In this document: in pieces, positions 1,033-4,989 of the stretch
Layout of the letters: each line of letters opens with the position of its first letter
Numbering within the stretch: the stretch's first letter is position 1
From: Nitrospinota bacterium
GTDB lineage: Bacteria; 2-12-FULL-45-22; JACOWJ01
Reading direction: 5' to 3'
Length of the DNA stretch: 11,715 bases
Assembly (NCBI GenBank): GCA_016176845.1
Contig: JACOWJ010000054.1
Span: 1-11,715 of the forward strand
Translations under genes and position numbers: made by a program
The notes under the pieces: model-generated
What the model was told of the DNA's origin: nothing
Databases searched by the model: none
What the model saw: the letters and a program-made list of their open reading frames with translations, nothing else

Positions 1033-1112
1033 ATTAGGGATTAGGGATTAGGGGCTAGGGGCTAGTAAGAAAAAAGAAGAGCTTTTGCTAATCCCTAGCC
1101 CCTAGCCCCTAA
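1033..1112. repeat. Inverted repeat built of 7-bp tandem units (heptamer hairpin 1)
   Basis: The left side reads as consecutive heptamers: ATTAGGG three times, GCTAGGG once, then GCTAG (1033-1065). The right side (1088-1112) is the same kind of array on the opposite strand. The perfect inverted arms are TTAGGGGCTAGGGGCTAG at 1048-1065 and its complement at 1095-1112, 18 bp each, with a 29-base loop rich in A and G. If rpsT is transcribed from the promoter at 1170-1198, the whole element lies in its 5' leader, ending two bases before the Shine-Dalgarno. No T run follows on either strand, so it does not look like a terminator. Its origin is unknown; it resembles short tandem heptamer repeats known from some bacterial genomes. 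Confidence 0.85.
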
Positions 1113-1169
1113 AAATGGAAATTCATCTGCGATGGAGTGATCGTGTTCTGACTGCACAATTAGGGGACA

Positions 1170-2304: not shown

Positions 2305-2358
2305 TAGGTTTTAAGTTTTAAGTTTTAGGTTTTAGGGCTTAAAACTTAAAACCTAAAC
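2305..2358. repeat. Inverted repeat built of 7-bp tandem units (heptamer hairpin 2)
   Basis: Four consecutive heptamers, GTTTTAA twice then GTTTTAG twice (2308-2335), then GGC, then TTAAAAC twice and CTAAAC on the opposite strand. The perfect inverted arms are TAGGTTTTAAGTTTTAA at 2305-2321 and its complement at 2339-2355, 17 bp each, loop 17 bases. The plan matches hairpin 1 (heptamer period, arms of 17-18 bp), although the unit sequence differs. It lies in the xerD-glnD gap, and its right arm carries the in-frame TAA (2347-2349) that closes the upstream extension of the glnD frame. Confidence 0.85.
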
Positions 2359-2442
2359 ATCGCCGGGAGAAGGGAAAAGATCGCAGTAAGACATCGTGCG
2401 GGGGGCGGAGGGCGGGATGTCGCTCAGCGGCACGCCTGCCTG

Positions 2443-4989
2443 GTGGACGAGACCGTCGAGGAGGCCTACGCGGCGGTGTTCGAGTCGTTGCCGGATCCTC
2501 CTGCCGCCGAGGGTCTGGGCTTGTCCCTGGCGGCTTTGGGAGGATATGGGAGGGGAGAGCTCAACCCCTGTTCGGACGTGGATATCCTGTTCGTCCATCG
2601 GCGGACTACGCCCCCGGTGGAGAAGGCGATCCAGGAGATCTTTTGTCTCCTGTACGATATGGGCTTTCAGGTGGGCCACTTTTGTTACTCGGTGTTGGAA
2701 GATGGCCGGTTGGACGAGTTCGACCTGACGACGAAGACGGCCATGGTGGAGACTCGGCATCTGGCGGGAGATCGGGAGGTCTTCGAGCGCTTCAGCCAGA
2801 TCCTGCTGCGGGAATGGTTCGACCGAGAGGCCATCTCCTTCGTCGATCAGAAGATCCGGGAAAGAGAGGAGCGATACGCCCTCTATCAGGGCTCTACCCA
2901 CCTCCTTGAGCCCAATGTCAAAGAGGGTCCTGGAGGGTTGAGGGACTATCATACGGCCATCTGGTTGACCAAGGCCAGGTTTCGGTTAGAATCCCCCGAA
3001 GCCCTCTGGGAAGAGGGGATTCTTCCTCCTTTCCGGAGAGCCCATGTCCTCCGGGCTTATGACTTCCTGCTTCGAGTGAGAAGCGAGATGCATTACCTCT
3101 GTGGAAAGCGGAGCGATGTCCTGGACCTCTACCTGCAAGGGAAGGTCGCGGCTGGCCTGGGCTATCGGGATGGGGATCGCCTCTCTGCCGCAGAGGCCTT
3201 TATGAAAGATTATTATCGAAGTGCTCGGATCCTGGCGGATTTTTCCAATCGGGTGGTACGCCATTGTCTGGAGGAAAAAAGAGGACGGGGAACAGTGCAT
3301 GAGAAGGAATTGGGCGACGGATTTTTTGCCGTGAACGGGGAAATCAGGATCATGAAAGGGAGGGGAGATCTCCTCAAAGAAGATCCTTTATGGCTGATGA
3401 GGTTATTTTGCCTGGTCGAGGAGGGGCTCTTTCTCAGCGAAGATCTCAAACACGCGATTCGGTCTCATCTCTCCGAGATCGATGAGGCTTACCGCAGGAA
3501 CCCCGAGGTCTCCAGGCTTTTCTTGTCCATCCTCAAAGAGAAAAGTTCCGCTACGGCCCTCCGCCAGATGCACGAGGTGGGGGTCTTGGGAAGGTATCTC
3601 CCTGAGTTCGAGGGGATCACGGGACTGATCCAGTACGACATTTACCACCAATACACGGTCGATGAGCACTCTCTGCGAGGGATCGAGCATCTGGAGAAGC
3701 TTCCCCACAGCGGACAAAAGGAGCTCAAAGAACTAATCGCCCTCTACCAAGGATTGTCGAATCTGGAGATCGTCAAACTGGCGCTGCTGCTTCACGATGT
3801 GGGGAAAGGGGAAGGGGAGGGGGACCTTACCCGGGGGGGCGGGGACCCTTTAGGGGCGAGCCCATCCCTTGCCCAGCACATCGAAAAAGGGGCCGGGTTG
3901 GCCGGGCAAGCCCTCGATCGCATGGGCTTATCGGGGAAGATCCAGGAGAAGGTGGAGTTCCTGGTCCGGCATCACATCCTGATGAGCCATACGGCCCAGC
4001 GGCGAGATATGCACGACAAGGAGACCGTCCGGCAATTCGCCGAGGCGATGAAGAACGTGGACAACCTGCAGCGGCTTTACCTGTTGACTTACGCCGATAT
4101 CCAGGCGGTAGGGCAGGGGGTATGGACGGTGTGGAAGGGCGCTCTGCTGTGGGAGCTCTACCACAAAAGCCTCGATGAGCTCTCCCGAGATCCCCAGGAA
4201 GCTCTCACCGGAGAAGCTCGGATCGCCAGGATCAAAGAAGAGGTCCGGGAGGAGCTGTTGGACGAGGTCGAGGCCGAGATCCTCGAGGATTACTTCCAGG
4301 CCATGCCCTACAAGTATATCCTATCCACGACGGCAGAGAAGATCGCCGACCACATCCGTCTGATCTGGAAGCTGGGCGCCGGCCACGGGAAATTGGCCCT
4401 CAGTTACACCCATAACCTGAAGGTGGGGTATTCGGAGCTGATGGTCTGCACGGCGGACAAGCCGGGCATCTTTTCCCAGATCGCGGGCACCCTGACCTCC
4501 AAGAATATTAACATCCTGGGGGCTCAGATCTTCACCCGGAAGGATCGCATCGCCATCGATACCTTACAGGTGGCCAGCGTGGAGGGCACGCCGCTGATGG
4601 AGCCGGGCCTGTGGGAGGAGATCGAGGGGGATCTCCTGGGGATCGTCCAGGGGGAGAAAAGGGCGGAGGATCTGGTCGGGCGAAGGCGATGGGTTCGCCG
4701 GCCGAGCAGCGCTGTGGCCACCCGAATCGAGATCGACAATAAGATCTCCGATACCCATACCATCATCGAAATCTTTACCCAGGATCGCCTGGGTCTCCTG
4801 TATGATATCACTTGCGCGCTGCATCGATTGGGGATCGACATCTACCTGGCCAAGATCTCTACGGAGGCCAACCGGGCCATCGATGTCTTTTACGTGACCA
4901 ACTTGGGCGGGGAGAAGATCCTGGCCGAGGATAAGGTAGGGCAGATCCGGAAAGAACTATCCGAGGTTTTGGCCGACCCCAATGAGTAG
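2443..4989 (+). CDS. glnD: [Protein-PII] uridylyltransferase / uridylyl-removing enzyme; 5' end uncertain
   Basis: GlnD senses glutamine and adds UMP to PII signal proteins (GlnB/GlnK) or removes it, setting glutamine synthetase activity and NtrBC-type control. Numbering from GTG 2443 (848 residues), the nucleotidyltransferase motif GGYGRGELNPCSDVD is at 33-47 (catalytic aspartates 45 and 47), the GlnD signature YHQYTVDEHS at 401-410, the HD hydrolase motif at H451-D452, and further HD-domain histidines at 510-511. Two ACT domains (about 664-735 and 773-845) bind glutamine. A glycine-rich stretch at about 455-477 separates HDVGKG from HIEKGA, where relatives have only a short GGDHS-like link, so it looks like an insert. 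The start is doubtful. GTG 2443 has no Shine-Dalgarno, and the frame stays open back to 2350, encoding family-like residues (REKIAVRHRAG, then RDVAQRHACLVDE), but without ATG, GTG or TTG. The heptamer hairpin lies exactly where the start should be. Confidence 0.93.
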   Translation: MDETVEEAYAAVFESLPDPPAAEGLGLSLAALGGYGRGELNPCSDVDILFVHRRTTPPVEKAIQEIFCLLYDMGFQVGHFCYSVLEDGRLDEFDLTTKTAMVETRHLAGDREVFERFSQILLREWFDREAISFVDQKIREREERYALYQGSTHLLEPNVKEGPGGLRDYHTAIWLTKARFRLESPEALWEEGILPPFRRAHVLRAYDFLLRVRSEMHYLCGKRSDVLDLYLQGKVAAGLGYRDGDRLSAAEAFMKDYYRSARILADFSNRVVRHCLEEKRGRGTVHEKELGDGFFAVNGEIRIMKGRGDLLKEDPLWLMRLFCLVEEGLFLSEDLKHAIRSHLSEIDEAYRRNPEVSRLFLSILKEKSSATALRQMHEVGVLGRYLPEFEGITGLIQYDIYHQYTVDEHSLRGIEHLEKLPHSGQKELKELIALYQGLSNLEIVKLALLLHDVGKGEGEGDLTRGGGDPLGASPSLAQHIEKGAGLAGQALDRMGLSGKIQEKVEFLVRHHILMSHTAQRRDMHDKETVRQFAEAMKNVDNLQRLYLLTYADIQAVGQGVWTVWKGALLWELYHKSLDELSRDPQEALTGEARIARIKEEVREELLDEVEAEILEDYFQAMPYKYILSTTAEKIADHIRLIWKLGAGHGKLALSYTHNLKVGYSELMVCTADKPGIFSQIAGTLTSKNINILGAQIFTRKDRIAIDTLQVASVEGTPLMEPGLWEEIEGDLLGIVQGEKRAEDLVGRRRWVRRPSSAVATRIEIDNKISDTHTIIEIFTQDRLGLLYDITCALHRLGIDIYLAKISTEANRAIDVFYVTNLGGEKILAEDKVGQIRKELSEVLADPNE
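3801..3857 (+). other. G-quadruplex-type tract and G-rich insert inside glnD
   Basis: Runs of 4, 4, 4 and 5 G separated by AAA, AA and A (3801-3823) make a textbook four-run G-quadruplex pattern on the coding strand. It begins within the codons for the HD-domain GKG. A 7-G run (3833-3839) and the word GGGGACCCTTTAGGGGC (3841-3857) follow. The stretch encodes GKGEGEGDLTRGGGDPLG, most of which seems additional to the family's usual length. Whether the structure forms in the cell cannot be told from sequence. Confidence 0.6.

Follow-up and report, generated by a model that had tools for sequence, protein, structure and literature searches.

What kind of genetic element is the perfect heptameric hairpin that lies between a xerD-like gene and glnD in a Nitrospinota bacterium, and does it belong to the same family as a second hairpin of the same plan at 1033–1112? 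The stretch of DNA in which both reside (the window, 11,715 nt) is one contig (C41) of a 1.53 Mb assembly that comprises 61 contigs and is 68 % complete. By Pfam matches or gene order it carries the C-terminal part of DNA polymerase III delta, rpsT (minus strand), a xerD-like tyrosine recombinase gene (1359–2252, Pfam) and glnD (PII uridylyltransferase), the open frame of which spans 2350–4989 (GlnD_UR_UTase, 3.5e-35; ACT). Further frames are phoH-, ybeY-, HIT-, mutS- and ntrY-like, the last names being assigned partly by eye. All features given below with window coordinates are on the plus strand. Frequencies within the genome were, unless the whole genome is specified, taken from a 404 kb sample (57.6 % GC) made up of the window and 20 further stretches totalling 392 kb, which were picked by contig and not by content.

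An inverted-repeat search places the arms of the hairpin at 2305–2322 and 2338–2355, so that the perfect repeat occupies 2305–2355; each arm is 18 nt long, the two are 100 % complementary, and the loop is 15 nt. The original prediction of a hairpin with a period of 7 and GTTTTAA/GTTTTAG units is thereby borne out, save that its arms had been put at 17 nt. TRF recovers period 7 on both sides, with 4.6 copies at 2305–2336 and 2.9 copies at 2338–2357. The left array (2308–2335) reads GTTTTAA, GTTTTAA, GTTTTAG, GTTTTAG, and the right array (2339–2357), in inverted orientation, reads TTAAAAC, TTAAAAC, CTAAA. Folded as single-stranded DNA the hairpin reaches −14.9 kcal/mol; the mean of 200 shuffles is −6.18 (z −4.5), and 0 of the 200 fold as well. 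As RNA it folds to −25.6 on the plus strand (z −6.5) and −19.0 on the minus strand, the former being the better because mismatches turn into G–U pairs. The sequence GTTTTARGTTTTAR occurs 238 times in the 1.53 Mb genome and 0 times when read backwards, whilst 40 other sampled genomes contain 0–4 copies each; the hairpin sequence is no chance string.

When the alignment is extended beyond 2305–2358, the sequence to the left proves constant, as does that to the right in many copies. The best explanation for the locus as a whole, and one that is very probably correct, is that it holds a copy of a gene-less MITE, a non-autonomous transposon, with the hairpin as its core. A search with the full element sequence returns about 24 dispersed copies in the genome, mostly with 92–100 % identity to the full element, which is some 130–150 bp in size (individual copies 115–200 bp) and has no gene inside. 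Complete copies are bounded by imperfect terminal inverted repeats of 21–27 bp, GGACTGGCGACCAAATAACTTTCCCAT on the left and ATGGGCAAGTTATTTAGTCCACGATCC on the right, and nine of ten such copies are flanked by a matching 3 bp target duplication, either TAA/TAA or TTA/TTA. The single mismatch belongs to L255 (GAA/TAA), and the matching cases include a copy without heptads (L101) as well as another that extends across an N gap (L263). Matched 3 bp TWA duplications are the mark of transposition, and terminal inverted repeats, a target duplication and many short, dispersed copies devoid of transposase are the features by which an element is assigned to the MITEs; all three are seen here.

In the window, the 5′ copy of the target duplication, TAA, lies at 2260–2262, with 7 bases between it and the end of the xerD-like gene. 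It is followed by the left terminal inverted repeat (2263–2289), which is identical in most copies, and by a small inner hairpin, TCCCATGGTCGAATGGGA (2284–2301), kept in nearly all copies that have a left end. A weak terminator-like stem was flagged in this inner hairpin, on the minus strand only. A search for the left end in viral contigs produced 0 matches.

Between copies, the number of heptads varies from 2 to 4 on the left and from 2 to 4 on the right, in steps of 7 nt, and the unit order of the left array, written by the last base of each unit, is AAGG (as in the window), AGGG, GGGG or AGG. The flanks of these arrays are nearly identical, which fits the gain and loss of whole units. Complete copies mostly have three or four right units, then a stretch opening with CTTTCTGCAGGGAACC, and then the right terminal repeat. 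One further copy (L101:7979–8098) displays the ends of the MITE and TAA duplications around a core of inverted, GATCGT-like palindromic units. Since the same ends can enclose another palindromic core, the heptad core is a replaceable module.

The copy in the window is incomplete. Its 5′ TAA, left end and hairpin are present, but unrelated sequence follows CCTAAA (2357), and the remaining right units, the CTTTCTGCAGGGAACC stretch and the right terminal repeat are missing. Due to this missing right end, only the 5′ TAA is readable. The glnD frame begins inside the right heptad arm and contains no ATG, GTG or TTG before 2443, and sequence homologous to glnD continues upstream of 2443, into the hairpin. 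In a comparison by eye with the orthologue of G001 (L062), a genome of the same order, about 20 N-terminal residues and the start codon are without counterpart, the start codon of G001 lying some 20 codons farther 5′, ahead of residues that can still be aligned. Nearly all copies with an AAGG left array stop at CCTA(AA), whereas copies with other left arrays run through this point. In two of the AAGG copies the stop coincides with a contig end (L265) or with an N gap that has matching TAA duplications on its two sides (L263). That AAGG copies stop at one point, there coinciding with a contig end and an N gap, suggests that the right end and the first codons of glnD were probably lost in assembly at the perfect palindrome. 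The alternative is a true deletion, with real truncation of glnD by the element. With loss in assembly, the complete copy would be expected to run from the right units through CTTTCTGCAGGGAACCAAATGGGCAAGTTATTTAGTCCACGATCC to TAA, with the real glnD start behind it. Short-read assemblies break at perfect palindromes such as this one, and the start of a gene can thereby go missing from the assembled sequence. The short copies were also considered as a subfamily ending in CCTAA with a right end of its own; this was rejected, as the flanking bases are sometimes TTA against TAA, and as the contig end and the N gap fall exactly there.

The neighbouring hairpin at 1033–1112, delimited by the inverted-repeat search and TRF, consists of TTAGGGA/GCTAGGG units, with arms of 18 nt and a loop of 29. 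It was correctly predicted to share its architecture, inverted and with period 7, with the hairpin at 2305–2358. The two do not, however, constitute one family: one is the core of a MITE with TWA duplications, the other the body of a different, tail-bearing element without duplication. Their supposed common TTAGG-like core also has two separate sources, arising from the target TWA plus the terminal GG in the MITE, and from the heptad itself at 1033–1112. The tail of the latter is a degenerate 3′ sequence, GGAAATTCATCTGCGAT (1117–1133; consensus GGAAATTCCTATRCGAT). No target duplication was found at tail-bearing elements (e.g. 1033–1133), and the similarity of their ends equals that of shuffled pairs. 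In the 404 kb sample the tail (consensus AAAATGGAAATTCCTATRCGAT) is present 50 times, and the palindromic bodies that precede it are of at least seven kinds, namely TTAGGG heptads, ACAGGGG, TAGCTCA, ATTGCTTCGC..GCAATC, ATTCCTCGC..GAGGAAT, CCCCCCTT and GACAGGATTTAC. With one mismatch allowed, this genome has about 119 copies of GGAAATTCCTATRCGAT and G001 has 16, the latter following other bodies; when 386 genomes were searched for exact matches, one copy turned up outside the phylum. These elements are often chained head to tail through a shared NAANTTA junction, in a cassette-like manner, and may be more novel than the heptad hairpin. Besides that in the window (1033–1133), examples include L092:3682–3850, L097:10467–10620 and L103:215–560, amongst others.

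Whilst the two hairpins are not relatives, the proposal of a family defined by architecture survives at another level, in that inverted arrays of period 7 form a genome-wide class. The 404 kb sample contains 62 inverted repeats whose arms match exactly over 13 nt or more. The arms are of period 7 in 30 of these, against one of period 5 and one of period 6; two Markov shuffles of the sample generated 2 and 4 inverted repeats, none of them periodic. Tandem arrays (13/14 matches at lag p) show the same preference, with 78 of period 7 and 7 or fewer for each of the other periods between 4 and 15. The scan proposed with the original prediction, run on this sample, therefore returns period-7 inverted repeats far above chance and does not refute that prediction. 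The same scan of 54 loci from other phyla (675 kb) found 0 period-7 arrays. Within the phylum the comparison is with one other genome, G001 (139 kb), in which there are four arrays of period 7 (GTTCTAR, CTCACCC, AATTAGC and GCGTTAG units), two of period 14 and none of every other period. A set of 38 other families (663 kb) contributed 16 period-7 arrays (next period, 9). Period 7 is thus the rule in this genome and a weaker trend elsewhere.

At least four unrelated classes of unit can be told apart: GTTTTAR; TTAGGGR with ACAGGGG; TAGCTCA; and AATTGNA with AAATGNA. An exact 11 nt inverted match within 130 nt accompanies 33 of the 78 arrays; 10.6 would be expected for positions adjoining other arrays, and 0.75 for random positions. 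In the ACAGGGG class, an inverted arm is found in only one of eight arrays. Inversion is therefore common but not universal. Degenerate 7 nt tandem units, mostly intergenic and with an excess of period 7, are what characterises heptameric simple sequence repeats of the Xanthomonas/Nostoc type, and the arrays of this genome have these features. As a separate observation, some AATTGNA arrays lie directly against GC hairpins whose triloops are GAA or GCA, such as CTCGCGCAGCGAG; these hairpins differ in sequence but share one form (L089:3756–3815, L107:11130–11187 and L101:13600–13675).

It is conceivable that, in this poorly sampled phylum, a process with a fixed 7 nt step, independent of unit sequence, makes or maintains inverted arrays, and that unrelated miniature families took these up as a central hairpin because it is helpful, perhaps by exposing single strands at replication forks. 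We regard this as unlikely. In the reading favoured here, period 7 would recur in several unrelated element types because heptamer arrays form or persist preferentially in this genome, as reported for tandem repeats of other bacteria.

With regard to function, passive insertion is the best reading of the hairpin. Heptad arrays are intergenic at 81 of 87 loci by our own simple gene calls. Gaps that contain arrays are tandem, divergent or convergent in 57, 13 and 6 cases, respectively, which resembles all gaps (151, 32 and 18), and within tandem gaps 21 of 50 arrays are nearer to the downstream start (p=0.32). Both hairpins of the window do literally lie next to gene starts, as was noted originally, but this is not a rule across the genome, and the expected enrichment near starts is not seen. 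A mostly intergenic location with no preference for gap type or start is as expected for tolerated insertions. It is nevertheless conceivable, if improbable, that the hairpin works in the xerD–glnD transcript, as a terminator, an attenuator or an RNA-stability element, and has been kept for that purpose. The plus strand, on which the RNA fold is the stronger (−25.6 against −19.0), has the direction of both genes, and in G001 a GTTCTAR heptad hairpin (L062:1285–1340) occupies the same xerD–glnD junction, just before the glnD start codon, although this unit occurs at only five places there. We count the latter as a coincidence noticed afterwards. Against such a role, the stem is AT-rich and no U run follows it, the terminator scan gave no match and no Rfam family reaches threshold for the hairpin, for which reasons a terminator or known structured RNA was rejected. 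Arrays are, moreover, not in excess at gene ends, gene starts or convergent pairs genome-wide. Of the ten MITE copies in the sample, five are in gaps where both genes have the direction of the element, but one or both neighbours of the remaining five run the other way.

Still less probable is that an active mechanism in this lineage, such as fold-back synthesis in 7 nt steps, generates inverted heptad arrays whatever their sequence, with mobile elements serving only as carriers of its products. Several unrelated unit classes with one period, and the dominance of period 7 with other units in G001, are what such a generator would leave behind. However, as many arrays were copied with their element, independent origins are far fewer than arrays. 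Nor are the arms mirror images in the two elements inspected by eye: the left array of the MITE reads AAGG and the right, from outside to inside, GGAA, and at 1033–1112 ATTAGGG stands against GCTAGGG. The near absence of inverted arms from the ACAGGGG class (1/8) also argues against it.

Transposition of the MITE would require a transposase supplied elsewhere. The IS1031 group of the IS5 family has a TNA target and a 3 bp repeat (PMC12016507), and the TNA-type 3 bp duplications of the MITE accordingly point to an IS5/IS1031-type transposase. The MITE is like this group in its TWA duplication and short terminal inverted repeats, and differs in having no transposase gene; a partner was not found. 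In the 68 %-complete genome PF13340 had no match and PF01609 only a weak one, below cut-off, in L284, with no MITE-like ends nearby; the complete element, used as a DNA query, retrieved no autonomous or long copy with the same ends. Due to this lack of an autonomous element that combines these ends with an IS5 transposase, we do not file the MITE as a member of IS5/IS1031. Repeats are frequently lost from such incomplete assemblies. The missing transposase is therefore weak counter-evidence. In the mechanism proposed here, an IS5-family (IS1031-like) transposase would act in trans on the ends and spread the MITE into intergenic gaps. Replication slippage would add or remove heptads, as the differences in unit number suggest, and the inverted arms would allow the DNA to snap back, hitchhiking with the element and not being selected for a job between xerD and glnD. 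That the hairpin is instead REP-like, and is recognised and mobilised by a single-strand transposase of the RAYT/IS200 type, is scarcely credible, despite the high copy number of these intergenic hairpins and the GAA/GCA triloop hairpins that abut some other heptad arrays. Y1_Tnp (PF01797) is absent from the genome (the same search being positive in 5 of 14 control genomes), and terminal inverted repeats with 3 bp duplications contradict this reading for the MITE, the RAYT/IS200-type class not being known to make target duplications.

The original prediction named no precedent for heptamers in this inverted form, but Rehm et al. report GGGAATC heptamers paired in inverted orientation 70 times in one Xanthomonas genome and 75 times in another (PMC4692102). 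The Xanthomonas GGGAATC and Nostoc GGGGAYT repeats are likewise degenerate intergenic heptamers, with hundreds per genome and 70–75 close inverted array pairs. Their length varies between relatives, whereas here variation is between copies within a genome. Each genome has a single class of G-rich unit, for which G-quadruplexes are discussed, and no transposon ends are reported in the sections drawn on here; in contrast, several unit classes, some of them AT-rich, are found here inside element types with defined ends. The BrickBuilt MITE of Porphyromonas gingivalis (PMC4596501) is similar in being MITE-like and intergenic, with terminal inverted repeats, a trapped tandem repeat that varies in number between its 19 copies, and predicted stem–loops. 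It contains 23 nt direct repeats in one direction and has non-uniform target duplications, as opposed to inverted heptamers and a constant 3 bp TWA. The TAACTGA repeats of Beggiatoaceae, Cyanobacteria and Bacteroidetes (PMC4679880), and the short tandemly repeated heptamers of cyanobacteria, are also intergenic. TAACTGA repeats are direct (with one inverted case) and sit right before start codons, unlike those described here, which are inverted and not tied to starts. What is new here is the combination of heptamer and MITE, with several unit classes in one genome and readable insertion marks. This links bacterial heptamer repeats and MITEs, which usually belong to separate literatures, and makes the gain and loss of heptads readable by comparison of element copies.

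In most genomes heptamers are reported to outnumber every other repeat class, and polymerase slippage has been proposed (PMC4679880), so that both their frequency and the slippage idea are already in the literature (also PMC4692102). At about 190 arrays per Mb, the present genome offers a large natural data set with which to ask what favours period 7 over 6 or 8 in bacterial genomes. Clusters of period-7 arrays are also seen in other phyla, at L229 (G017:C1), L214 (G002:C1) and L252 (G030:C2), where the units include AAGGCGG, AGTGCTC, AACAATC and GGATTTT, with six in 20 kb at L229.
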